Notes under the pieces: model-generated
What the model was told of the DNA's origin: nothing
The model's database searches: none
The model's input: only the letters and a program-made list of their open reading frames with translations
Made by a program: the position numbers and the translations under genes
IMG/VR virus record: IMGVR_UViG_3300033064_002408
Span: 1 to 59,337 of that record
Length of the DNA stretch: 59,337 bases
Origin: a virus
Reading direction: 5' to 3' (one strand)
In this document: piece by piece, positions 9,677-59,337 of the stretch
Layout of the letters: each line of letters starts with the position of its first letter
Position numbering within the stretch: position 1 is the first letter of the stretch

Positions 9677-9774
9677 TTCGACACCTACCTGAGAAGATGA
9701 CGCCGGCCCTCGGCGTCCAGTTCCGTGACCTGACAAACCCCGGCGCCAACGCGCCGACCAAGGAGCAACCATGA
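9673..9774 (+). CDS. Micro-gene, 33 aa
   Basis: ATG overlaps the preceding TGA (ATGA), and the stop overlaps the ATG at 9771. Basic start, Pro-rich end; unknown. Supported mainly by the two overlaps. Confidence 0.45.
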   Translation: MIRHLPEKMTPALGVQFRDLTNPGANAPTKEQP

Positions 9775-10175
9775 CCGTGGAGAAGGTAAGCCTGTACAAC
9801 CGCAACGGGCAGTTCGTGATGGGCGAAGGCGCCACCCGCGAGGAGGCCAAGGCCAGCGCCAAGGAGCAGTTCCACGCCCTACTCGGCAAGGAGGCTGAGG
9901 TGGTGCGCGAGACCTACGAGGTGGACGACAAGAGCCAGGCCCCTGGCCTCAGCTTCAAGGGCCGCCTGTCCCACGCTCTCCAGGCCCTGCGCGTCGAGCG
10001 CAAGATCACCCAGGCCCAGGCCGTCGAGAAGTTCCCCGCCTCGTTGAAGGTGGACCAGGGCGCGCTGTCGAGGATGGAGAACGGCAAGCAGGCGTTCTCG
10101 TCGTTCCTGGTGGACCACCTGCTGAAGGCCTACAGCGTCGAGCCCATCGAGCTGCTGGGGAGGATGAGCAAGTGA
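9771..10175 (+). CDS. XRE-family helix-turn-helix protein with extra N-terminal domain
   Basis: 134 aa. Residues about 62-130 form an XRE/Cro-type HTH: LRVERKITQAQAVEKF, then KVDQGALSRMENGKQAFSSFLVDHLLKAYSVEP, with the ALSRMENG recognition-helix signature. Residues 1-60 form a small alpha/beta domain of unknown role. Probable DNA-binding regulator, or a protein-protein adapter using an XRE fold. Distinct from the two short Cro-like proteins at 42223 and 48244. Confidence 0.8.
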   Translation: MTVEKVSLYNRNGQFVMGEGATREEAKASAKEQFHALLGKEAEVVRETYEVDDKSQAPGLSFKGRLSHALQALRVERKITQAQAVEKFPASLKVDQGALSRMENGKQAFSSFLVDHLLKAYSVEPIELLGRMSK

Positions 10176-11922: not shown

Positions 11923-12185
11923 TGGGACTTTGGGAATGGATCGTCGTGGTGCTGGTGGCCGCGGTCGCGTGCTTCGTGGTGTTCATCGTGGCACCGCTTG
12001 GCCTCTACTGGATCGTCATGCGGGCCGTCTTCGGCAAGGACCCGCTTCGGATGTTCCGTGAGCGTAACGACGACAGAGACAAGCGGGCGAGAGAGATGAT
12101 GGAGCGGGCACGGAAGCGACACCATGACGAGGCGAAGGCGGACTGGAATCCGAGAGGGGGAAATATGGAAGGGGGCGATCTATGA
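11922..12185 (+). CDS. Small single-pass membrane protein, 87 aa
   Basis: Residues about 5-33 are strongly hydrophobic (WIVVVLVAAVACFVVFIV then APLGLYWIVM), followed by a basic/charged helix to the end. Likely inner-membrane protein with a cytoplasmic tail. Could be a lysis or superinfection factor, but it is far from the endolysin. Confidence 0.65.
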   Translation: MGLWEWIVVVLVAAVACFVVFIVAPLGLYWIVMRAVFGKDPLRMFRERNDDRDKRAREMMERARKRHHDEAKADWNPRGGNMEGGDL

Positions 12186-12244
12186 CCGACCAAGTAGCCC
12201 AGCGCATCGCCGAGCAGATGGCCCAGCAGAGCCAGGAGAACGCG
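12182..12244. repeat. 63-bp direct repeat, copy 1
   Basis: Identical to 12789-12851. Begins exactly at the ATG of both genes and encodes the same 21 residues; flanks differ. Confidence 0.95.
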
Positions 12245-12589: not shown

Positions 12590-12792
12590 TCCCGAACGAC
12601 GGTGACGTTCTTGAGCTACTACGCGATCTCGAATGGTCGTATCGGCACGACCAGGAGGGTCCTTGGGTCGAGGGAGGCCCAACCTATGACACGTTTTGTC
12701 TCTGCCCCATCTGCCACGGAGAGAAGCCAACCCATGCGGACGGATGCAGGCTTGAGAAGAAAATCCAGCAGATCGACAGGTGTATGAAATGA
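12586..12792 (+). CDS. Hypothetical protein, 68 aa
   Basis: GTG start overlapping the preceding stop. Contains CLCPICHGEKPTHADGC, a compact Cys/His cluster typical of a zinc site. It lies between the two copies of the 63-bp repeat. Function unknown. Confidence 0.6.
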   Translation: MIPNDGDVLELLRDLEWSYRHDQEGPWVEGGPTYDTFCLCPICHGEKPTHADGCRLEKKIQQIDRCMK

Positions 12793-12851
12793 CCGACCAA
12801 GTAGCCCAGCGCATCGCCGAGCAGATGGCCCAGCAGAGCCAGGAGAACGCG
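12789..12851. repeat. 63-bp direct repeat, copy 2
   Basis: Identical to 12182-12244, 607 bp downstream of it, starting at the ATG of a different gene. Confidence 0.95.
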
Positions 12852-13645: not shown

Positions 13646-13839
13646 GCGCCGCGGAGTGGAAACCGGGGCCACCGACTGAGCCTGGGCTGTGGTGGGTTGA
13701 GACCTTTGTTTGTGACGTGTGGCTGCTTCGATGGACTGCTGCCGGTGTGAAGCATTGGGTATGGCCGGAGATCCAGGCGGCCGGAGAATCACAGATCCAG
13801 GGGTGCGGATTACATGCCCCTGTGGAGCCCCCATCATGA
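13642..13839 (+). CDS. Trp-rich small protein, 65 aa
   Basis: Rich in Trp (EWKPGPP, GLWWVE, KHWVWPEIQ), resembling the small phage proteins of the type 'P-x-G-x-W-W-x-G...W-PEIQ'. Function unknown. Coupled to the following large gene by ATGA overlap. Confidence 0.6.
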   Translation: MSAAEWKPGPPTEPGLWWVETFVCDVWLLRWTAAGVKHWVWPEIQAAGESQIQGCGLHAPVEPPS

Positions 13840-15347
13840 CCACCGCACCCGACCGCGAACGCATGAACTCCATGGCGATCACCATCGCCAGCTTCGGCCC
13901 GCTGTGGGCTTCACAGGGCGCCATCAACCTCGCCGAGATCGCCAAGTGGCCCACGGTCGCCAAGCTCAAGGACGTGTTCAAGGACAAGCCCGCGGTCATC
14001 ATCGCCCCGGGCCCGTCGCTGTCCAAGAACCTCGAGTTGCTGCGTGACCTCAAGGGCCGAGCGGTGCTCATCGCCTTCAGCCGGTGCCTGGAGATCCTCA
14101 GGCCCGCGGGCATCGTGCCCGACCTGGTGGTGGTGCTCGACCCGCTGGATCTGCTGTTCCACTTCGAGGGCTACCCCGTCGAGGAGCTGGAGGGCATCGT
14201 CATCGGCATGACGTGCAACCGCAACCTGTTCCGGCTGCCGGTCAAGCGCGTGTTCACCTTCAGCGGCAACGCCACCGTGGAGTCCTGGCTGTACGAGGCC
14301 CTGGACGGCTTCGACACCTTCCTCGATACGAGCTGCTCCGTGGCCACCACGACCACGAGCCTGGCCGTCAAGATGGGCTGCGACCCCATCATCTACGTGG
14401 GCCAGGACTTGAGCTTCTCGGGCAACCGCTACTACGACAAGGGCAGCAGGGACGGCGGAGCAAGGCTGGAGGCGTTCCCCCAGCCCGATGCCCACCAGTT
14501 GGCCCTGGAGGCAGCAGCAGCAGCCACCCTGGAGTTGCTCGAGTCTGCGGGCTCACCTCACGCCGCGATGGGTCGCCAGAAGATGACGGCCGAGCGCGAC
14601 CTGCGAGAGCAGGGCGTCCAGGTGACCGGCTTCTCCGAGGACAGCAAGAAGGTCGAGGCCAGTGGGCGCGCGGTGCTCTCGCGCATCGGTCGCGTGGTCA
14701 AGGTGCCCGGCTACTACGGTGGCAAGGTGAAGTGTACGCCCTCATTCTCGTGGGTCGGTGAGTGGCTGGAGAAGCGCATCGCCGATCACAAGAAGGGGCG
14801 GTTCATCAACGCCACCGAGGGAGGCCGCAAGATCGAGGGCTGCATCCACGCCCCCCTGGCCACGGTCATCGACGGCGGCGAGGTGAGGCTGGGGACGAAG
14901 CTGCTGGCCGAGCTCGAACCCCTGGCCAACGAGCGCCTCGATGTACCTGGCACGCTCCAGGGCATCGTGGACAGCATCGACGTGAAGGCACAGCGCAAGG
15001 CCCTGATGAAGATGGCCAAGCGCAACAAGCGCTCTCTGGTGCGCGCCCACGCCTACGCGTCGAAGCTGCTGCCACTCACCTACGAGACGCTGGAGGATGC
15101 CTTCGGGCGCAGGGCTCGGCGCCTCCACGCCAAGATGCAGCGGGAGCTGGAGGGGGCTTCGATGTTCGCTAGCGTGGCCCAGCAAGCCGAGTACGACGCC
15201 ATCTTCCAAGCGGCCAAGAAGGCGGCGACCGTGAACGACGTGAGCGACTGCGTGGAGGGCCTATGCCAGGCCACGCAGCGGGCAGCGGAGATCGGCGTGC
15301 TATCGTTGGACAGGGGGATATGGGAGATGGAGCATGGCAGCCCGTGA
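13836..15347 (+). CDS. MptE-like / DUF115 (Maf-type) protein
   Basis: 503 aa. Residues about 50-230 match the 6-hydroxymethylpterin-diphosphokinase MptE-like domain (DUF115, PF01973), the domain of flagellin nonulosonic-acid transferases (Maf). Visible motifs: PAVIIAPGPSLSKN at about 52-65, a conserved VVVLDP near 100, TSCSVATTTTSLAVKMGC near 170, and IIYVGQDLSF near 188. The C-terminal 250 residues are helical and unrecognised. In bacteria Maf proteins glycosylate flagellin; here the gene sits next to the terminase, so it may modify a virion protein or a host surface structure. Enzyme activity is inferred, not shown. Confidence 0.75.
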   Translation: MTTAPDRERMNSMAITIASFGPLWASQGAINLAEIAKWPTVAKLKDVFKDKPAVIIAPGPSLSKNLELLRDLKGRAVLIAFSRCLEILRPAGIVPDLVVVLDPLDLLFHFEGYPVEELEGIVIGMTCNRNLFRLPVKRVFTFSGNATVESWLYEALDGFDTFLDTSCSVATTTTSLAVKMGCDPIIYVGQDLSFSGNRYYDKGSRDGGARLEAFPQPDAHQLALEAAAAATLELLESAGSPHAAMGRQKMTAERDLREQGVQVTGFSEDSKKVEASGRAVLSRIGRVVKVPGYYGGKVKCTPSFSWVGEWLEKRIADHKKGRFINATEGGRKIEGCIHAPLATVIDGGEVRLGTKLLAELEPLANERLDVPGTLQGIVDSIDVKAQRKALMKMAKRNKRSLVRAHAYASKLLPLTYETLEDAFGRRARRLHAKMQRELEGASMFASVAQQAEYDAIFQAAKKAATVNDVSDCVEGLCQATQRAAEIGVLSLDRGIWEMEHGSP

Positions 15348-17354: not shown

Positions 17355-17389
17355 GGGGGCCTACGCGTATGGTCTAGGAGGAGGTGCCC

Positions 17390-17875
17390 ATGCGAACCGC
17401 TCTCATCCTGTCCCTGCTGGCATTCATCGGCTGCACCCCAGCCACCACCGTCTGCACCAGCGTATGGCCCGACATGCCCGGTCTGGACGCATGTAGCGGA
17501 CCAACACGAGACCTCCCGCGCGAGGGGGACTTCACCCTGACCCTCAAGACCGGGTGGTATCCAGGCGACGTGCAGCACGCCACGCAATGGACCCAGGGCC
17601 ACAACCCGTTCACCACGGCCACCGATGGAAGCGACTACGAGCTATTGGACGGAAGCCCACCGCGCTCAGAGTCTTGCGGGCCGTTCAACGGACTGCACGC
17701 CACGGGCTCATTCTCCGAGGTGAGCGATGCCGATGCCGACGACCATCCGAGCTGCTGGAGGATGCAGGTGCTGCCGACCGAGCCCTACCCGGCGTGGGAC
17801 AGCTACATGGACGGCTACGGGCCCAACGGGATGGGGCGGCACATGTGGCAGGAGTTGACGGTGGAACTGCTCTAG
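17390..17875 (+). CDS. Predicted lipoprotein, 161 aa
   Basis: ATG 17390 follows a very strong ribosome site (aggaggagg). The N-terminus is a short lipoprotein signal peptide (MRTALILSLLAFIGC), with Cys16 as the lipidation residue. The mature part is Cys/Trp/Pro-rich and probably disulphide-bonded in the periplasm or outside the cell. Phage lipoproteins often block superinfection or help lysis. Its placement between terminase and portal is unusual for a lysis gene, so exclusion is a reasonable guess. Confidence 0.75.
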   Translation: MRTALILSLLAFIGCTPATTVCTSVWPDMPGLDACSGPTRDLPREGDFTLTLKTGWYPGDVQHATQWTQGHNPFTTATDGSDYELLDGSPPRSESCGPFNGLHATGSFSEVSDADADDHPSCWRMQVLPTEPYPAWDSYMDGYGPNGMGRHMWQELTVELL

Positions 17876-18099
17876 AACTGATCCCCTACGCCCCCCACGG
17901 GCCCGCCCCCCAACTCCTTCTCGATGTCCTTCAGCCCCTTCTCCACGGCCCACCTCAGGATCGCCGTTCTGGAGGGGCGACCGAACGCCGCCATCTCGTG
18001 CCCATCACGCTCCATACGCTGTGCGAGGCTGGAGGCGCGCACCGCCTGCTCGTGGTAGACCTTGGTCTGAGTCTCGTGGTCAACGTTGCTTCGGCGCAT
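17872..18099 (-). CDS. Minus-strand RHH-like regulator inside the late operon, 75 aa
   Basis: Runs against its neighbours. The start at 18099 has AGGAGG just upstream (complement of 18104-18110). The C-terminal half, GRPSRTAILRWAVEKGLKDIEKEL, fits the two helices of a ribbon-helix-helix DNA-binding fold. A strong promoter-like site lies immediately upstream. It may be a separately controlled moron gene or a late-gene regulator. Target unknown. Confidence 0.7.
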   Translation of the reverse strand: MRRSNVDHETQTKVYHEQAVRASSLAQRMERDGHEMAAFGRPSRTAILRWAVEKGLKDIEKELGGGPVGGVGDQF

Positions 18100-18117
18100 C
18101 GGCGTCCTCCTGGCCCC

Positions 18118-18146
18118 ATAATAGCCACGTCCTCCCCGGGTGCCAA
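18118..18146 (-). promoter_or_regulatory. Strong minus-strand promoter-like site
   Basis: On the complement: TTGGCA (18146-18141), 17-nt spacer, TATTAT (18123-18118). This is close to the sigma-70 consensus and the best-matching promoter seen in the window. The transcript would have a leader of about 12 nt carrying the AGGAGG site. Confidence 0.7.
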
Positions 18147-37037: not shown

Positions 37038-37465
37038 GATGCCTCACACTGATCCTCGCGCTGTCCATCGTCGGCGCTGCGTCAGCCCAGCCAGACCGCT
37101 ACAACCTCGGCGTCCATGAAGATGGCACCTATTGCGCCGAAGGCCCAACCGTCCAGGTGTACCCGCCCGAGGCCGTGCTGGTGGACGGCGAGATCCGCTA
37201 CACCGACGCCGATGACGTGCTCCACGTGCTGGAGTGCAAGGGCGGCGCCGTGTCGCTGGAGCCCACGCAGTGGAAGAAGCTACCCGACGATCCGCATTTC
37301 GTGGTCCCCGTGGACTGGGCGAAGGGCGAAGACGGCGATCCGGAGCCCCGTAAGAAGCCGCTGCCCGAGAAGGCGAACGGCACCCCTGTCGCCGTGGCCG
37401 TCGGCGGCGCTGGCCTGACCGGCGTTGCTCTCGCTGCGTGGCTGCGGTCCAAGCGGGCTACCTGA
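37034..37465 (+). CDS. Secreted/membrane protein, 143 aa
   Basis: Signal peptide (MRCLTLILALSIVGAASA, predicted cleavage after Ala18), a periplasmic domain, and a C-terminal hydrophobic segment (about 121-137, VAVAVGGAGLTGVALAAWL) followed by KR, so type-I membrane topology. Located between spike and endolysin, coupled to both by four-base and three-base overlaps. Could be a spanin-like or lysis-timing protein. Confidence 0.65.
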   Translation: MRCLTLILALSIVGAASAQPDRYNLGVHEDGTYCAEGPTVQVYPPEAVLVDGEIRYTDADDVLHVLECKGGAVSLEPTQWKKLPDDPHFVVPVDWAKGEDGDPEPRKKPLPEKANGTPVAVAVGGAGLTGVALAAWLRSKRAT

Positions 37466-38088
37466 TGCCCCTCATTCTCTCCCGTGACCACCAGGGCAAG
37501 CCAGGGCGCCGACGTAACGACGTGGGTGCGGCCCGTGACCTCGACGGCGACGGCGACATCGACCGAGACGAAGAGGAAGCGTACCTCACCGAGGGCTACA
37601 TCCAGGGCGCGACCTTGGCCATGTGCGAGCCCTCCCGCTACTGCCCGTCACCTGTGCTGACCCTCGGCCCGTACAGCGAGCGCCACGCCCTCTCCAACGC
37701 CCTCGCCGAGCGGTGCTCACTGCTGCCCTTCGCGTACATCGCGTGCCACGTGAACGCGGGTGGAGGCGACTTCGGGCTGGTCTTCCACGACCACCGCAGC
37801 GCGGGCGGGAAGAAGCTCGCCCTATCCATCGCCGCGAGGCTGTCGGCTGCGTGCCCTGAGTTGCGCGAGGTCCAGGTGCGTGCGTGCTGCCCCGACGACT
37901 GGACCCGCAACGCGTACAGCACCATCAGGGGCATCTACGCCGGCCCCAGCAACCTCGCCGGGGTATGCTTCGAGCCCGGGTTCATCGACTGCGCCAAGCA
38001 CGCGCCACTGTGGAAGCCCGAGGGCCTGATGAGGATCGGTGACGCTCTGGGTGACGGCGCCTTCTCGTTCATGTATCCAGCCCCCTGA
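37465..38088 (+). CDS. Endolysin: N-acetylmuramoyl-L-alanine amidase with EF-hand-like loop
   Basis: 207 aa. Fits the zinc amidase_3 fold: His9 (RDHQGK), a second His at 95 in ACHVNAG, and a C-terminal catalytic Glu170 in VCFEPGF. This cuts the amide bond between muramic acid and the peptide. An insertion at residues 25-36, DLDGDGDIDRDE, is a perfect 12-residue EF-hand loop (D1, D3, D5, G6, I8, E12). No signal peptide, so it needs a holin to reach the wall. ATG 37465 overlaps the previous TGA. Confidence 0.82.
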   Translation: MPLILSRDHQGKPGRRRNDVGAARDLDGDGDIDRDEEEAYLTEGYIQGATLAMCEPSRYCPSPVLTLGPYSERHALSNALAERCSLLPFAYIACHVNAGGGDFGLVFHDHRSAGGKKLALSIAARLSAACPELREVQVRACCPDDWTRNAYSTIRGIYAGPSNLAGVCFEPGFIDCAKHAPLWKPEGLMRIGDALGDGAFSFMYPAP

Positions 38089-38096
38089 CCCCCTCC

Positions 38097-38150
38097 CCCA
38101 CCGCTGCCGCTCTGGCTATCCGCAAGCTGCTGTTGAGGCTGTGCGGTGGG
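38097..38150. terminator. Possible bidirectional terminator
   Basis: Inverted repeat CCCACCGC (38097-38104) and GCGGTGGG (38143-38150) between the end of the endolysin and the end of the minus-strand gene. Loop is long (38 nt), so it is a weak candidate, but the converging genes make termination likely here. Confidence 0.4.
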
Positions 38151-38164
38151 TGGAGGCTTGCGCG

Positions 38165-38662
38165 CTAGCCGTACATCGAGGCGAGAATCCACCGAGGCGT
38201 CGTGTTGGGCTTGTCAGCCTCGATTCGCCCGACTCCATCGCAGGTTGTGCATGGCTCCCCGTCTTCCTCTCCTGTTCCGTCACACGACCAGCACGGCGGC
38301 CCCTTGTCGAGACCCAGGATCTCCGCGACCTTCGCCAGCTTCGCGTCCCAGTCCGGCTGCACGGACAACTCAGCAGGATCGATGTCCAGCGGGCTTCCGC
38401 GCCACGCCCTCTTGAGCGTCCCCGCGATACAGAAGACTGGCGAGTAGTACTCGTATGAGCAGTGTCCATGGACCTCGATACCGAGTTCGTCCCGCAGCCA
38501 TCCCGTCGCGTACACACCGGACGGTAGCGTTGCTCCCATCTTTTCGATGATGAGATCTCCCCAATCGCTGTCTGTGTCGTCTGGATCTTCGACGTATGAG
38601 CCCGCGTCTTCGTGGTCGATCTCGAACCCGTAGAAAAGCATCCCGTCTGAACTGATCCCCAT
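38165..38662 (-). CDS. Hypothetical protein with DnaJ-like zinc motif, 165 aa
   Basis: Second gene of the left minus-strand operon. N-terminal acidic alpha/beta domain; residues about 124-146 carry CWSCDGTG and CTTCDGVG, the C-x2-C-x-G-x-G repeats of DnaJ zinc domains. Ribosome site GAGGAG upstream of the ATG. Function unknown. Confidence 0.65.
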   Translation of the reverse strand: MGISSDGMLFYGFEIDHEDAGSYVEDPDDTDSDWGDLIIEKMGATLPSGVYATGWLRDELGIEVHGHCSYEYYSPVFCIAGTLKRAWRGSPLDIDPAELSVQPDWDAKLAKVAEILGLDKGPPCWSCDGTGEEDGEPCTTCDGVGRIEADKPNTTPRWILASMYG

Positions 38663-38723
38663 GATCTCCTCCTCGCCACCCCCCAGCCTGCAAGCCGGGG
38701 GTCGGTTTCAAGCCGTCGAGGGC

Positions 38724-39347
38724 TTACTTGGTTGCGGCGTCCTGGTGCTTCTGTGCGATGGAGTTGACGCGCTCTATATCGGACTCGTTTCCCTCTAGCG
38801 CCGACTGAAGGATCTTTACGGTTTCGTCGAAGCAGATCCCCTCGTCACTGCATCCACTAAAAAACGGTGCAAACCGATCCGCGAAACCCTGTCCCTTCGC
38901 GGTGTACCGAACCTTGAGATCGGAATCACCACTGCAGAATACGCTTGGAAGTTCGTATTCGAGTAGCCCTTCCCTGCGGTTCACTTCGAGTCCGTACGCC
39001 GCATAGAAGGCATTCATCCACGAATCAACCTCCTCGACGGTGAACGACAGAGATCCGCATTTGGTTTCCCACGCTCGCATGAAAATCAAGACGCCGAAGA
39101 GGATGCCGCCTGTTTTCCCGTCGTCGTCGTCGTCACTGTTCCACGTCTCGAACAGATCGGTGACGTGATCGATCCACTCGCTGGATGCGCATCGTATCCA
39201 TTCGATGGACGCCCCATCTCCAGCCGGAGCCCAGCCTTCCTGCGCAGCCTTGAACATCTCGATCAACGCCTCGCTGTGCGGCACCTCTCCGCCGTCTGCG
39301 TGGCACAGCCTCTCTATGCCGCTCCAGTCGATTGTTTGATCGTTCAT
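38724..39347 (-). CDS. Hypothetical protein, 207 aa
   Basis: First gene of the left minus-strand operon, transcribed from the repeat region to its right. Acidic with a hydrophobic stretch near the middle (GGILFGVLIFMRAWETKCG) that may be a helix. A mini Cys motif, FFSGCSDEGIC, follows. No family recognised. GC content is lower than in the late module, so it may have been acquired. Confidence 0.65.
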   Translation of the reverse strand: MNDQTIDWSGIERLCHADGGEVPHSEALIEMFKAAQEGWAPAGDGASIEWIRCASSEWIDHVTDLFETWNSDDDDDGKTGGILFGVLIFMRAWETKCGSLSFTVEEVDSWMNAFYAAYGLEVNRREGLLEYELPSVFCSGDSDLKVRYTAKGQGFADRFAPFFSGCSDEGICFDETVKILQSALEGNESDIERVNSIAQKHQDAATK

Positions 39348-39466
39348 CTCTCACTCCACACCGCAGTCGCCACCCGGCCGGAAGGCCAGGCTGTGAGACC
39401 GGAAGGCGCATCCAGCCGGGGGCGAACTACGGATCAGGTGTTGTTGGTGCCGGTCTCACGGGGGAG

Positions 39467-39496
39467 AGCATAGCCCAACTGCTTCAAGATGTGCAA
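39467..39496 (-). promoter_or_regulatory. Leftward promoter-like site inside a repeat
   Basis: On the complement: TTGCAC (39496-39491), 18-nt spacer, TATGCT (39472-39467). The -35 and spacer are part of the 29-bp repeat. It would drive the genes at 38724 and 38165. Confidence 0.5.
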
Positions 39497-39502
39497 CGGT
39501 TC
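39474..39502. repeat. 29-bp repeat, copy 1
   Basis: Matches 39712-39740 at 26 of 29 positions (core cttcaagatgtg). Copy 1 overlaps the -35/spacer of the leftward promoter-like site; copy 2 lacks the -10. Confidence 0.8.
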
Positions 39503-39566
39503 GTCCGTCGTCGCCGTCGATGCCGTCGCAGTCCCAACCCGTCGCCGTCGCCGTCGATCCCCAACC

Positions 39567-39582
39567 GACAGCCAGCCGACAG
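39567..39582. repeat. 16-bp repeat gacagccagccgacag, copy 1
   Basis: Exact copy at 39667-39682, 100 bp downstream. Each copy contains a near-palindromic gacag...gacag pattern. Confidence 0.85.
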
Positions 39583-39666
39583 AGCCGATCGCTGTACGTC
39601 GCCCATGTGTCATGTCGAATCCGCGATCTGTCATGTGCGATCGGGCCTCGATGTGGTAGCCCAGCG

Positions 39667-39682
39667 GACAGCCAGCCGACAG
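39667..39682. repeat. 16-bp repeat gacagccagccgacag, copy 2
   Basis: Exact match to 39567-39582; flanked by the shared sequence gatcgggcctc (39639-39649 and 39690-39700). Confidence 0.85.
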
Positions 39683-39711
39683 GGAACCGGATCGGGCCTC
39701 AGTCGCCCGCG

Positions 39712-39740
39712 CCCAACTACTTCAAGATGTGAAGCGGTTC
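39712..39740. repeat. 29-bp repeat, copy 2
   Basis: 26 of 29 identical to 39474-39502, 238 bp away. Possible operator for the same regulator. Confidence 0.8.
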
Positions 39741-39776
39741 CCCCTTCGCGCCCAACCATCCGGGATTTCCGGACTG

Positions 39777-39806
39777 TTGCGGATTCGGGGGCGGGTCGTG
39801 TAGGCT
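39777..39806 (+). promoter_or_regulatory. Rightward promoter-like site
   Basis: TTGCGG (39777-39782), 18-nt spacer, TAGGCT (39801-39806). Would transcribe the leader region and the lipoprotein gene at 39973. Confidence 0.45.
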
Positions 39807-39855
39807 TCGTGGAGAGGTTCAGGCCGAAAGGCCAGCAACTCACGGAGGGTACGTC

Positions 39856-39900
39856 ATGACACCCTGGGCGGTCGAAAGGCCGCCCGCCTTCGTTCTGTGA
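39856..39900 (+). CDS. Possible 14-aa leader peptide over a hairpin
   Basis: ATG 39856 behind ggaggg; reads MTPWAVERPPAFVL then TGA. The hairpin 39866-39885 lies within it. A small ORF overlapping a hairpin upstream of a gene is the layout of translational or attenuation control. Confidence 0.4.
   Translation: MTPWAVERPPAFVL
39866..39885 (+). terminator. GC-rich hairpin with GAAA loop
   Basis: gggcggtc, gaaa, ggccgccc: 8-bp stem with one G-U pair. A similar ggcc-gaaa-ggcc hairpin at 39822-39833 could compete with it. The following gccttcgttct is only weakly T-rich. Possible attenuator. Confidence 0.45.
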
Positions 39901-39972
39901 TACGCTCCGCTGAGTGGAGGCGCCGGGACACCGCCCGACGCCCCCGGCCCGAACCCGCAGGAGGTCCAAGCC

Positions 39973-40626
39973 ATGCGTTTAATCTACACCCTCGCGGCCC
40001 TCGCCGCCCTTCCCTTGCTACTCGGCGCGAGCTGCAACCGAACCACCGACACGCCACCGCCCGCCCCGGAGTTCACCGTCGGCGACCTGGTGATGGTGAC
40101 CGACTTCGCCAGCACAGGAGCCGAGCTCACCCGCGCGGCCCTCGTCCAGGCCGGCGACTTCGACGGCTGCATGGTGGCCAGTGGGTTCGTGGACGGACTC
40201 GCCGCGGTCCACCAGTACGCCCCTGAGATCGAGGCCGAGGTGGACGCCCCCGACGGCGTGATCACCTTCCCCGCGTGGAGCTTCGACGGCACCCCGTGTG
40301 AGTCGCTACTCCCCGCCGACTGGCCCCCGGTCGAGCCGAACCCGGAGATCGCCGCCATCGCCAGCCCGATGATCGAGAGCACCATGGGCCTCGTGTCCAT
40401 GCTGATCGAGCGTGACGCGCCGGCCGAGGGCGAGGACTGCCTGCGGGCGAAGGTTGCGGCCGCGCTGCTCAAGTCCGGCGCGAAGCAGATCCCCGCGGCC
40501 ATCGACGACGTGTGGCTGGACGCGGATCTCAAGATGGAGATCGCGGGGTTCGAGGTGGACTACTCCGGGTGCGGGGTGCTGCCTCCGAAGGTGGACGTGA
40601 TGAACCCGGTGCCGGTCAACAACTAG
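39973..40626 (+). CDS. Predicted lipoprotein, 217 aa
   Basis: Start GGAGG-linked at 39973. Signal peptide MRLIYTLAALAALPLLLGASC; Cys21 is a probable lipidation site, although the lipobox (GAS) is not ideal. The mature region begins with Pro/Thr-rich linker and has four Cys, so it may be a disulphide-bonded outer-membrane or surface lipoprotein. Fits a superinfection-exclusion or lysis accessory role; no family recognised. Confidence 0.7.
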   Translation: MRLIYTLAALAALPLLLGASCNRTTDTPPPAPEFTVGDLVMVTDFASTGAELTRAALVQAGDFDGCMVASGFVDGLAAVHQYAPEIEAEVDAPDGVITFPAWSFDGTPCESLLPADWPPVEPNPEIAAIASPMIESTMGLVSMLIERDAPAEGEDCLRAKVAAALLKSGAKQIPAAIDDVWLDADLKMEIAGFEVDYSGCGVLPPKVDVMNPVPVNN

Positions 40627-40635
40627 GAGGGCGCA

Positions 40636-40938
40636 ATGAACACCGACCCGAAAGACGAACAGGTCCCGAACGTACCACCCCCAACCGTGAAGCGTGACAA
40701 GCGCGGCGGCATCCAGGTTGACCCGTCGATGGACTGGATGAAGGGGCTCATCGCTCGCATGGTGAACATGTTCGGCGCCGAGGCGCAGGACAAGACATCG
40801 GAGCCGAGCGCCTGGAATCGCCACCAGCGCCGCAGCAAGAGCGGCCACGGTGGACGGCCAGCACGGCGCGGAAACCTGCGTCGAGGGCAGTACGGCAAGA
40901 TCCGGCGAACCATGAAGCGAGAAGCGGCGATGTGGTGA
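40636..40938 (+). CDS. Basic hypothetical protein, 100 aa
   Basis: Follows the lipoprotein with a taggagg ribosome site. Acidic/Pro start, then a strongly basic C-terminal half (NRHQRRSKSGHGG, RRGNLRRGQYGK), so nucleic-acid or phosphate binding is possible. No known family. Confidence 0.6.
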   Translation: MNTDPKDEQVPNVPPPTVKRDKRGGIQVDPSMDWMKGLIARMVNMFGAEAQDKTSEPSAWNRHQRRSKSGHGGRPARRGNLRRGQYGKIRRTMKREAAMW

Positions 40939-41333
40939 GAGGACGCCCCCTCCACCGCCTGCGCACCCAGCGCGCGCTCACCCTGCAGACGATGCTGCGG
41001 GAGGATGCTGCCGAGTACGCCGACGCCGAGATCCGGTACGTGTGGATCGCGTCGCTACACCCTGCGCCCCCAGTGGCCTACGGTACTGCCTGGATCTACG
41101 ACGGCTCCCCGGTCCAGTGGGACGGCATGGGCTACCACTGGAGGACGGGCCCCGGCAAGACCTGGACCATGATCGGCATCCGCTACCACCACGCCCGCAA
41201 GTGGTGCCGCTCCAAAGCCCGCGTCAGCAGCGGAACCCCACGCAAGCGACCGCCGACGCTGGCCGAAGTGATGGACGCGATCACTGGGTTCGTGGGCTTG
41301 GCTGGCGCGGTGGTGCCGATGTTCCGGGACTGA
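40935..41333 (+). CDS. Hypothetical protein, 132 aa
   Basis: GTG 40935 overlaps the preceding TGA (GTGA). Basic, Trp/Tyr-rich middle, and a C-terminal hydrophobic stretch (VMDAITGFVGLAGAVVPMF) that may anchor it in the membrane. Unknown. Confidence 0.6.
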   Translation: MRGRPLHRLRTQRALTLQTMLREDAAEYADAEIRYVWIASLHPAPPVAYGTAWIYDGSPVQWDGMGYHWRTGPGKTWTMIGIRYHHARKWCRSKARVSSGTPRKRPPTLAEVMDAITGFVGLAGAVVPMFRD

Positions 41334-41957: not shown

Positions 41958-42226
41958 TGGGTGAGCATTCAGATCCTATCCTGGCCGAAATCAGAAGGCT
42001 GAGGGAAGACGAAGCGGCTCTGGTAGAAGTCCGAGCCGCGCTTCGCACGCCCCCCGGGGCCGACGTCGTACGCTCTGCAATTGCTGTGCGTGCCCTGGCT
42101 GATAAGCTGCTTCGGTCTAATAACGAGACGTCAGGGGCAGTCTGCGAGCGATGTAATACTGAAGCCTTCTACGAGTTTGTAAACGGCATCGGCCTATGTG
42201 GCCGGTGTTCTGGAGCGTGGAAATGA
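41957..42226 (+). CDS. Hypothetical protein with zinc-like C-terminus, 89 aa
   Basis: Helical, Ala/Arg/Leu-rich N-terminus; the end carries CERCNTEAFYEF...CGRC, a four-Cys zinc site. Unknown. Confidence 0.6.
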   Translation: MGEHSDPILAEIRRLREDEAALVEVRAALRTPPGADVVRSAIAVRALADKLLRSNNETSGAVCERCNTEAFYEFVNGIGLCGRCSGAWK

Positions 42227-42438
42227 CCACCCTACGTATCATCAACACCGCCGCAGTCCGCGCCCTTCGCGCCCGCCACGGCCACCACACCCAGCAGTGC
42301 ATCGCCAACGCCATGGGCCTGCACCGCCCGCAGATCTCCGCGTGGGACCGTGACGGGTGGACGGACACGGCGATCGACCGGCTACTCCGCGCGCTCGACC
42401 TGACGCACGAGGACTTCATCCGAGAGCTGCGGCCGTAG
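42223..42438 (+). CDS. Cro/CI-like helix-turn-helix protein, 71 aa
   Basis: ATG 42223. Helices ALRARHGHHTQQCIANAMG, then LHRPQISAWDRDGWTDTAIDRLLRAL form a Cro-like HTH (residues about 14-55). It is similar in length, start (MTT) and C-terminus (EDFIRELR against EDIAREIR) to the protein at 48244, so the two are probably paralogues. Likely binds the phage operators near the P41/P47 promoters, but this is inference. Confidence 0.75.
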   Translation: MTTLRIINTAAVRALRARHGHHTQQCIANAMGLHRPQISAWDRDGWTDTAIDRLLRALDLTHEDFIRELRP

Positions 42439-42540: not shown

Positions 42541-42735
42541 ATGGACTTCGTCAACCGAATCCTCTTCAAGGTCACCGGCCGCAAGGTCGTGGTCTTCGTC
42601 GTCGCGTCAGCCTTCCTCGCTGCCGGCATCATCGAGCAGGAGCAGTGGATGTGGGTGGCGGTGGCTACGGGCGGATTCGTCTCGGTGGAGAAGTTCGCGG
42701 GGCTGCTGGGTGGCAAGGCAAAGTCCGATGCCTAA
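42541..42735 (+). CDS. Small two-helix membrane protein, holin-like, 64 aa
   Basis: ATG 42541 follows GGAGG. Two hydrophobic segments, about 16-31 (VVVFVVASAFLAAGII) and 36-48 (WMWVAVATGGFVS), joined by a short acidic turn, with a charged C-terminus. Size and topology suit a class II holin. It sits far from the amidase (37465), though, so other membrane roles are possible. Confidence 0.6.
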   Translation: MDFVNRILFKVTGRKVVVFVVASAFLAAGIIEQEQWMWVAVATGGFVSVEKFAGLLGGKAKSDA

Positions 42736-46741: not shown

Positions 46742-46833
46742 GGGATCCGGATCCTCTCTCGGGGCTTTGGCCCTCAGGAGCGCAAGCCGAGCTTACGCGC
46801 AATCTCACCCCACCCTTCCTTCAGTAGAAAGGG

Positions 46834-46847
46834 GAATGTCTCCGTAG
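46834..46847. repeat. 14-bp repeat gaatgtctccgtag, copy 1
   Basis: Same sequence at 46877-46890, 43 bp apart (about four helical turns), so proteins bound to both would face the same side. Just upstream of the leftward operon start. Confidence 0.75.
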
Positions 46848-46876
46848 GCTAGGAGGGCGCGGGGGCGACCAGGGCG

Positions 46877-46890
46877 GAATGTCTCCGTAG
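46877..46890. repeat. 14-bp repeat gaatgtctccgtag, copy 2
   Basis: Exact copy of 46834-46847. Both neighbours of this pair also share gtagaaa. Confidence 0.75.
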
Positions 46891-47094
46891 AAAAGACCCC
46901 GTCGCTTTCTGGGACCCCCGGCCAATCATTGGCCCCCTTCCTTCTGCCGGTCGCCATCAAAGCCCCCGGCAAGTGTGGGCGGTCCCTCGCGTGTCCGCCT
47001 CCTATCCCTCCATGCGCCGTGTACGGGTCGGCGTTCCCTGATGCGCAGGGTGGACGTGCGGGCGAGTATTCAGTTTTCAGGAGAGGCGTCTGGG

Positions 47095-47122
47095 TTGACA
47101 GGACCAGCAGGACTGCTAGCCT
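47095..47122 (+). promoter_or_regulatory. Promoter-like site upstream of a stem-loop
   Basis: TTGACA (47095-47100), 16-nt spacer, TAGCCT (47117-47122). Transcription would begin near 47129, 12 nt before the inverted repeat 47141-47187. Confidence 0.55.
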
Positions 47123-47140
47123 TGGATCACTTACTCGCCT

Positions 47141-47187
47141 CTCGCGCCACCTGTATTCCCGACTACCAATCGGGTGGGTGGCGCGAG
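47141..47187 (+). ncRNA. Possible structured RNA: nested 11-bp and 5-bp hairpin
   Basis: ctcgcgccacc (47141-47151) pairs with ggtggcgcgag (47177-47187); inside, cccga (47158-47162) pairs with tcggg (47170-47174). No good ORF follows on this strand, so the transcript could be a small non-coding RNA or a leader. Could instead be a DNA palindrome bound by a protein. Confidence 0.45.
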
Positions 47188-47307
47188 ATCGATCCTACCC
47201 TCCCGCTCCCCCTCGGTAAACCCCCTCCCGAGAATTCCCAGGCAGTGGGGCCACGTCATCCCCTCGAAAAAAACCGCGCCCCCTGAACGCTGTACGTCTA
47301 TGCCGTG

Positions 47308-47369
47308 GCGAGAAAACTTACACGCCATGAGAAACAAGCCTTTACGTCCTAGCGTATAGCTGTTATCTT
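47308..47369 (+). promoter_or_regulatory. Promoter module P47 with conserved upstream box
   Basis: GCGAGAAAAC (47308-47317), 23 nt, TTTACG (47341-47346), 17 nt, TATCTT (47364-47369). Upstream CGTCT at 47295-47299. Same 62-bp layout as P41 and P49. Expected start of transcription is 47376, the A of an ATG. Confidence 0.65.
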
Positions 47370-47375
47370 TTGAAC

Positions 47376-47954: not shown

Positions 47955-48247
47955 TGGGCGTCGCGGCCTACAACCGCGGCAGCGCGGTGATCTCGCGTCA
48001 GATCCAGCGAGACCTCGGACACGCCGACCCATCCGAGTACAAGCCAGAGCCGCGCCCATCTGACTGGGGAAGCAAGACGCGAGCGAAGGCCGACAAGCGC
48101 GCGGCCGGAATTCTTCACTACTGGACGGTCCTTCGAGGACGCCAGCCGATGAGCCGCGAAGACCTCGTGGACATGATCCAACAGGGCATCGGATGCGGTC
48201 GAAAGACGGCCGAGGCCGCAGCAACGAAAGCACTGGAGATCCGATGA
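47954..48247 (+). CDS. Hypothetical protein, 97 aa
   Basis: GTG start. Basic; residues about 65-97 (MSREDLVDMIQQGIGCGRKTAEAAATKAL) look like a small helical DNA-binding or winged-helix end. Unknown. Overlaps the next gene by four bases. Confidence 0.55.
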   Translation: MGVAAYNRGSAVISRQIQRDLGHADPSEYKPEPRPSDWGSKTRAKADKRAAGILHYWTVLRGRQPMSREDLVDMIQQGIGCGRKTAEAAATKALEIR

Positions 48248-48462
48248 CCACCTACCGCCAAGCCACGACCCTCGCCATCCGTGTCCTGATGACCCGCCAA
48301 GGCGTCACAGGCCGAGCCATCGCCGAGCACCTGGACGTGGCCGAGACCAACGTCTCGCAGTGGTTGAGCAAGCGCACGGACGGAATCCCGCAGGCCCGCG
48401 TCGAGGACATCCGCAGGTTCCTCGGTGTGAGCAACGAGGACATCGCCCGCGAGATACGGTAG
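48244..48462 (+). CDS. Cro/CI-like helix-turn-helix protein, 72 aa
   Basis: ATG 48244. HTH helices VTGRAIAEHLDVAETNVSQWLSK (about 20-45), where AETNVSQWL is the recognition helix. Ends EDIAREIR, close to the EDFIRELR end of the 42223 protein. Both are small single-domain regulators downstream of P41 or P47. Probable phage regulator; which promoters it binds is unknown. Confidence 0.78.
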   Translation: MTTYRQATTLAIRVLMTRQGVTGRAIAEHLDVAETNVSQWLSKRTDGIPQARVEDIRRFLGVSNEDIAREIR

Positions 48463-58553: not shown

Positions 58554-59213
58554 ATGAACCCCCTGATAGTCGTAGACGTAGAGACCACCGGCCTACCCGG
58601 CAAGACCCCGCCCGAACTCCTGCGCATCGTCGAGGTGGGCGCCGCGTTCGTGGATGAGCACGGGGACATCCGCCGCACCTTTGGCGAGATCGTGAGCCCC
58701 GGCGCCGAGATCGCCGAGCACCCCAAGGTGCAGGATGCGCTGGCGATCTCCGGGCTCACGCCCGAGTTGCTGGTGGAGCGGGGGCGGACTGAGGTCCGGG
58801 TGGCCAAGGAGTTCCTGTGCTGGGTGGAGTCGCTACCGGGCCCACGTCCCCACGCAACGGCGTACAACCGCGACTTCGATATGGGCATGCTCAGCGACGG
58901 CCCGTGGCGCCTGGCGCTGTCTGGTGTGCCCCTGGCGCCCTGCCTGATGCTGGAGTCCCTGAAGGCCATGGTCGAGCACGGGGGCCCGCTGGTGCAGAAG
59001 CCGTGGGCCAAGGGCGATCCCCCGCCGGCCCTGGAGTTGCTGGAGTCGGGCGCGGAGGGCGACTGGTACAAGTGGCCACGGGCTGACGAGACGATCCCCT
59101 GGCTCCGCGAGCGCGGGCACTACATCCCGGCGCTGCGAGAGCACCGGGCGCTGGATGACGCCGTGATGGAGGCGTGGGTGGCGGTGGCGTTGGGGAAGGA
59201 GGGGCGGTCGTGA
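58554..59213 (+). CDS. DEDDh 3'-5' exonuclease (DnaQ-like)
   Basis: 219 aa. Exo I motif IVVDVETTG with Asp8 and Glu10, Exo II near residue 105 (AYNRDFDMGM), and Exo III EHRALDDA near 196-203 with His and Asp. This is the full DEDDh set. Length suits a free-standing DnaQ-type exonuclease, used in proofreading or end processing. No phage DNA polymerase accompanies it. Its stop overlaps the first gene of the window across the circular join. Confidence 0.9.
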   Translation: MNPLIVVDVETTGLPGKTPPELLRIVEVGAAFVDEHGDIRRTFGEIVSPGAEIAEHPKVQDALAISGLTPELLVERGRTEVRVAKEFLCWVESLPGPRPHATAYNRDFDMGMLSDGPWRLALSGVPLAPCLMLESLKAMVEHGGPLVQKPWAKGDPPPALELLESGAEGDWYKWPRADETIPWLRERGHYIPALREHRALDDAVMEAWVAVALGKEGRS

Positions 59214-59337
59214 GGACGCCTCCTTGGACGCTCGACAGGGACAAGATCGCTGAACTGTTGCCAGAATGGAAAGTGTTCGGCGAGGGCCACATCGTCGCAC
59301 GCTCACCGGACGGCATCACCACCGCGCGGTTCCAGCA
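59207..59337. repeat. Right copy of terminal direct repeat
   Basis: Identical to 1-131 and holds the start of the first gene in duplicate. It is the circle-closing overlap or a true terminal repeat. Confidence 0.95.

Follow-up and report, generated by a model that had tools for sequence, protein, structure and literature searches.

Phages commonly carry divergent operator regions. As set out in the sections of PMC4557955 on the 33-34 intergenic region of mycobacteriophage BPs, two divergent promoters share one gap there, with one operator placed between a promoter's -10 and -35 elements and a second operator 113 bases away, and in the full operator one half site is palindromic and the other a variant. 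The same sections describe a repressor gene that adjoins the region, measured repressor binding, five bound regions in the genome and a temperate lifestyle. Two further kinds of repeated phage site are described in mycobacteriophages: the L5-type stoperators, which are 13 bases long, with 18-30 repressor sites per genome according to the parts of PMC3203893 and PMC4557955 that deal with them, and the start-associated sequences of Cluster K phages, which in the corresponding part of PMC3203893 recur at gene starts genome-wide.

The window analysed here is the whole of IMGVR_UViG_3300033064_002408, a single virus record of 59,337 bases. Self-comparison shows an exact 131-base repeat at the two ends of the record (1-131 and 59207-59337), so that it probably represents a complete genome, about 59.2 kb in length, that was assembled across its own ends. 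It contains terminase, portal, protease and major head genes, a replication initiator gene (1380-2318; PHROGs search), a DNA methylase gene (Pfam search) and several genes for small proteins with helix-turn-helix matches in PHROGs or Pfam searches, including 9771-10175, 42196-42438 and 48193-48462. The Pfam searches covered 62 of the 83 called genes, at E 0.1 in one scan and E 0.001 in others; the other 21 are mostly structural, and some of them were scanned with PHROGs. The best portal match among the phage-record matches listed had 54% coverage and 27.4% identity. Two neighbouring genes with an identical start (MTDQVAQRIAEQMAQQSQENA) share a 63-base exact repeat (12182-12244 and 12789-12851). 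Amid the rightward head genes lies a small leftward gene of 75 amino acids (17872-18123, its protein at 17872-18099) that is kept in related viruses (37.5% over 56 residues) and is directly preceded by the top promoter match of the contig (TTGGCA-17-TATTAT, 18123); this gene is a possible regulator.

The region of interest is a 625-base gap, 39348-39972, which lies between divergent genes, as the initial annotation had stated and the gene calls bear out, and which separates a leftward two-gene unit from a rightward operon as judged by gene direction only. A non-coding gap between divergent units defined in this way is a feature of divergent operator/promoter regions, and the gap is indeed non-coding: its two long frames score -0.317 and -0.326 per codon as compared to 0.131, 0.114, 0.356 and 0.194 for four flanking genes. 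A missed gene within it was rejected. The features of the region are as follows.

38724-39347, minus strand: leftward orphan gene, 207 amino acids, first of a two-gene unit with 38165-38662 (codon score)
39345-39459, minus strand: predicted 5' leader, from the assumed +1 to the start codon (computed folds)
39393-39402 and 39450-39459, minus strand: arms of a 10-base perfect inverted repeat, the 5' stem of the predicted leader (sequence)
39467-39496, minus strand: candidate leftward promoter TTGCAC-18-TATGCT (sequence; matrix rank 65)
39473-39501, no strand: repeat A copy 1, operator-like, over the candidate -35 and spacer (sequence comparison)
39503-39556, no strand: triplet-like low-complexity run of GTCGCC/CGTCG (sequence)
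39560-39582, no strand: repeat B copy 1, containing the exact 16-mer GACAGCCAGCCGACAG (sequence comparison)
39605-39636, no strand: two TGTCATGT sites, 21 bases apart (sequence comparison)
39639-39649, no strand: repeat C copy 1, GATCGGGCCTC (sequence comparison)
39660-39682, no strand: repeat B copy 2 (sequence comparison)
39690-39700, no strand: repeat C copy 2, GATCGGGCCTC (sequence comparison)
39711-39739, no strand: repeat A copy 2, operator-like, with a CTTCA-N5-TGAAG palindrome (sequence comparison)
39777-39806, plus strand: weak candidate promoter TTGCGG-18-TAGGCT, lying before both the 14-codon frame and the hairpin (matrix rank 924)
39856-39900, plus strand: 14-codon open frame MTPWAVERPPAFVL, overlapping the hairpin (Shine-Dalgarno match)
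39865-39886, plus strand: terminator-like hairpin with a GAAA loop (terminator scan, folding)
39872-39901, plus strand: better-scoring candidate promoter TCGAAA-18-TGTGAT, over and after the hairpin (matrix rank 83)
39973-40626, plus strand: putative lipoprotein gene, heading a rightward gene run up to 43355 (gene call)

The protein of the leftward gene had no Pfam match and a sole PHROGs match at E 0.08, no close relative was found in a viral scan that reaches close relatives only, and its single-sequence structure model was unusable (mean pLDDT 39.3) because relatives are lacking. The product of the rightward gene carries, by eye, a signal sequence with a GASC lipobox; it matched no Pfam or PHROGs family, no relative in the viral scan and none of five related virus records, and its best value in a related bacterial bin was E 0.296. 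Neither flanking gene matched a regulator family in PHROGs or Pfam, the nearest helix-turn-helix gene among those scanned being 42196-42438. The rightward gene run that begins at the gap includes 42541-42735, which by eye encodes a small membrane protein and possible holin with weak PHROGs matches. Further to the left, the 37438-38088 protein is amidase-like by eye only, with no family match and no match in four records.

The repeats noticed initially could all be located. The 29-base pair (repeat A) is identical at 26 of 29 positions with its copies 238 bases apart, and a weaker match extends to 38-43 bases; the exact 16-mer within repeat B occurs at 39567-39582 and 39667-39682, 100 bases apart; the two copies of repeat C lie 51 bases apart; and the triplet-like runs occupy approximately the interval listed. 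Along the gap the order is A copy 1, triplet run, B, C, B, C and A copy 2. No third copy of repeat A was found on either strand of the contig, where the next matches have 10 mismatches. When 500 dinucleotide shuffles of the gap were used as the null, the best ungapped direct-repeat score of the gap was 21 and no shuffle exceeded 14, and the numbers of duplicated 8-, 10- and 12-mers were 42, 20 and 9 against shuffle means of 6.3, 0.42 and 0.02, none of the 500 shuffles reaching any of these values (the maximum for 10-mers was 6). Among 588 windows of 625 bases along the contig, they were reached only in those starting at 39101 to 39401, all of which overlap the gap. Masking the triplet-like run left 30, 13, 9 and 6 duplicated 8-, 10-, 11- and 12-mers, and 0 of 1000 shuffles had as many. 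In a blastn comparison of the contig with itself the A pair came third, behind the end repeat and the 63-base exact repeat (12182, 12789). The direct repeats are thus real and far above chance. Inverted repeats in the gap are not above chance: one at least as good as the best of them occurs in 425 of the 500 shuffles and in 409 of the 588 windows. An excess of CCCAAC (5 in the gap against 0.24 expected by density) was given no weight because this sequence was singled out after the fact among all 6-mers, and because two of its copies fall inside repeat A.

The best promoter-like site in the gap is the leftward one, whose -10 at 39467-39472 and -35 at 39491-39496 are separated by an 18-base spacer and agree with 7 of 12 consensus bases. 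It ranks 65 of 118,584 positions, or about 1.1 such sites per kb, against a sigma-70 matrix, the ranks from which serve as a guide only. A consensus promoter scan of 38000-41000 found no promoter. On the rightward side, the candidate over and after the hairpin ranks 83 with the same matrix (about 1.4 such sites per kb), whereas the match at 39777-39806 is little evidence, because at rank 924 there are some 16 such sites per kb. The proposal that the leftward promoter takes its -35 and spacer from one 29-base copy is correct as geometry: copy 1 overlaps this weak match, and copy 2 overlaps none of the promoter-like sites listed. The copies differ at three positions, of which two, 39494 and 39496 by the numbering of copy 1, belong to the candidate -35 and the remaining one to the spacer. 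At the -35 positions copy 1 reads TTGCAC, and copy 1 is not a palindrome, whereas copy 2 completes CTTCA-N5-TGAAG there; this palindrome is weak evidence, because palindromes with 5-base arms occur in 8.5% of shuffled 29-mers. The 10-base inverted repeat that had been placed around the promoter does exist, but given the positions of the -10 and -35 both of its arms lie downstream, the promoter-proximal one (39450-39459) starting at the predicted +1.

The initial annotation had offered the gap as an origin or master control region, and neither proposal is supported. As a replication origin with iterons the gap has several direct repeats within one non-coding interval to recommend it; however, a strongly AT-rich stretch is lacking, the maximum over 50 bases being 0.46, a value that 6.4% of contig positions equal or exceed, as against contig peaks of 0.68 near 1109 and 41365 and 0.62 near 1733 and 47327. 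Cumulative GC skew turns at 17386 (maximum) and 48550 (minimum) and not at the gap. Moreover, A, B and C have only two copies each and unlike spacing instead of the regularly spaced copies of one repeat that characterize iterons, and no initiator gene adjoins the gap. We therefore give this reading next to no credence. A lambda-type origin lies inside the initiator gene. This genome likewise has direct repeats and an initiator, but at 1380-2318, whereas the gap has neither an initiator nor strongly AT-rich DNA; a lambda-like origin, if the phage has one, would more likely sit at the initiator gene. Within that gene an AT-rich segment (1687-1786) is followed by tandem repeats (1785-1832), which makes 1687-1832 a better origin candidate. 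Directly before the initiator gene, an HNH endonuclease gene (685-1380) contains the 100-base stretch with the highest AT content in the contig and is perhaps a recent arrival.

With regard to master control, no integrase, resolvase or partition family was found in the 62 of 83 called genes searched with Pfam, and the 29-base site is confined to the gap. A partition site finds no partner either, ParA/ParB-type genes being absent from the same 62 genes. Weak PHROGs matches to a DNA transposition protein (48193-48462, E 0.0066; 685-1380, E 0.34) belong to proteins that match helix-turn-helix or HNH families better, and no marker of a temperate phage was seen in the 62 genes scanned with Pfam or in some others scanned with PHROGs. 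A second divergent gap of 634 bases, 46742-47375, contains a 15-base exact repeat 43 bases apart, a 12-base inverted repeat and two rightward promoter matches, at 47364 and 47117, which rank second and fourth in the contig, and is perhaps the likelier early control region.

Relatives of the gap were sought with viral scans that detect close relatives only. Queries from the head, tail region and terminase found relatives of about 56% identity in four virus records and one bacterial-bin contig, together with one weak relative (36% over 51 residues); one record is identical over the terminase, and the terminase, head and tail genes are common to the related viruses at approximately 30-56% identity. 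The gene at 13836-15347 is about 55% identical to its counterpart in related viruses, and its protein is probably the one with a Pfam MptE-like match, in a result that did not name the member. No relative was found in the viral scans for the three genes adjoining the gap, a repeat-pattern scan of viruses gave no match, and the gap itself matched none of the five related virus records. Comparison of the gap with phage and plasmid records yielded one 45-base match (E 0.6) and nothing else. In the related bacterial bin at least 20 places were returned, with 40 of 358 first-look candidates scored and a best E of 1.8e-4; the three inspected of 20 were rejected as relatives of the gap, because two fell in the triplet run and one lay inside long open frames. 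The longest related record, of 31,752 bases, ends in a gene that is amidase-like by eye, and, judging from gene order, a counterpart of the gap is to be expected past its end.

We propose, with a probability of about 0.6, that the gap is an ordinary divergent control region carrying operator-like sites for two phage transcription units. This reading follows from the confinement of the repeats to the gap far above the level of shuffles, from the non-coding status of the gap between divergent genes, from the fact that repeat A copy 1 falls exactly on the spacer and -35 of the top promoter-like site in the gap, from the small helix-turn-helix proteins that the genome encodes and from the existence of a phage region of the same layout in the sections of PMC4557955 cited above. 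The leftward promoter would drive 38724-39347 and 38165-38662, and one or more rightward promoters would drive the lipoprotein operon from 39973. Repeat A would most likely be bound by a phage DNA-binding protein, for which 9771-10175, 42196-42438 and 48193-48462 are candidates; binding at copy 1 would cover the -35 and spacer and thereby repress leftward transcription. The second copy, 238 bases off and upstream of the candidate rightward promoters, might serve co-operative binding or looping, or alternatively might tune a rightward promoter. Repeats B and C are possible sites of a second protein, and the leader RNAs are possibly structured, which would add a translational or termination step. 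The earlier suggestion that the 29-base repeat is an operator is accordingly plausible as far as the pair is unique to the gap and copy 1 covers the candidate -35 and spacer, but the promoter matches behind it are weak. That weakness, together with the failure of our searches to find a relative covering the gap, counts against the control-region reading, as do the non-palindromic copy 1, the frequency in shuffles of a palindrome like that of copy 2 and the lack of a regulator gene beside the gap.

Several of the same observations would also suit repeats that are neutral debris, left by slippage or duplication of short non-coding pieces without any binding protein. The A match fades gradually across about 43 bases, more than one dimer operator needs, so a decayed duplication also fits; triplet-like tracts adjoin repeat A, the order A-B-C-B'-C'-A' could stem from nested duplications, and the searches gave neither evidence of conservation nor a gap-bearing relative. 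However, gapped self-alignments show that the spacers between the repeats are unlike, and short repeats at unlike distances (238, 100 and 51) argue for separate binding sites rather than a single duplication. Furthermore, no other 625-base window of the contig has as much repetition, and one copy of repeat A falls precisely on a candidate -35 and spacer. We consider neutral debris unlikely, yet a possibility to be taken seriously.

Control could otherwise reside mainly in the RNA, through a refolding leftward leader and a rightward leader peptide with its hairpin, the DNA repeats mattering less. Taken from their assumed starts, both leaders form more stable folds than the majority of shuffles do: the full leftward leader has z -2.76 (2 of 200 shuffles as good), its first 90 bases form two local hairpins (z -2.15, 4 of 200), the rightward leader from 39812, a start set by the weak promoter match, has z -2.55 (3 of 200) and a short rightward piece has z -2.76 (3 of 200). 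The lowest-energy fold of the whole leftward leader is long-range and pairs the GGAG of the ribosome-binding site, whose bases have unpaired probabilities of 0.09, 0.05, 1.0 and 0.02; with the 5' stem enforced they are more open (0.29, 0.83, 0.34 and 0.24), but this fold is 12.8 kcal/mol worse. On the rightward side, MTPWAVERPPAFVL alone among the frames that begin inside the gap has a Shine-Dalgarno match under the rule applied, and it overlaps the hairpin, whose 12-base motif GG[CT]CG[AG]AAGGCC occurs three times on the plus strand of the contig, always in the gap; 200 contig shuffles average 0.05 occurrences of this motif, which was chosen after it had been seen. Against this, the hairpin is not above chance, because one was found in 38000-41000 where shuffles give 1.3; Rfam returned no match at gathering score across all 59,337 bases and, in 39200-40100, one hit (E 3.5) outside the gap; the rightward leader depends on the match of rank 924, and the candidate of rank 83 over and after the hairpin would exclude the small frame from the transcript. 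This reading would also leave unexplained repeats A, B and C, none of which falls within a leader, so that control mainly by RNA has a small probability. Slighter still is that of a joint two-layer switch. Its operator pair would be asymmetric, with copy 2 as the palindromic high-affinity site and two of the three differences in copy 1 creating the -35; its leftward leader would start exactly at the 10-base stem and refold to hide the ribosome-binding site; and on the rightward side a leader peptide would overlap the terminator-like hairpin on the plus-strand motif found in the gap only.

If the gap is indeed a divergent control region with operators, it answers no long-standing question but gives a foothold for studying how genes are controlled in a phage group without a close match in the phage collection searched. 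It shares with the L5 stoperators, as far as the cited parts of those reports describe them, short asymmetric repeated sites in phage DNA, whereas the two copies of repeat A sit together in a single gap instead of being dispersed over the genome. Like the start-associated sequences of Cluster K, some of which stand beside inverted repeats in the part of PMC3203893 that treats them, the repeats are short and precede phage genes; unlike those sequences, A, B and C all stand apart from start codons. With respect to the BPs 33-34 region as portrayed in those sections, the present gap differs in having no adjacent repressor gene, a 29-base site found in the gap only and copies 238 bases apart, and the genome, unlike that of temperate BPs, shows no integrase in the genes scanned. 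What the gap has in common with BPs is the divergent layout, with one operator-like site on the -35 and spacer of a promoter, here a weak candidate, and a second further off. As in the BPs operator, one copy of repeat A, each copy being a putative binding site, carries a palindrome and the other is its variant.
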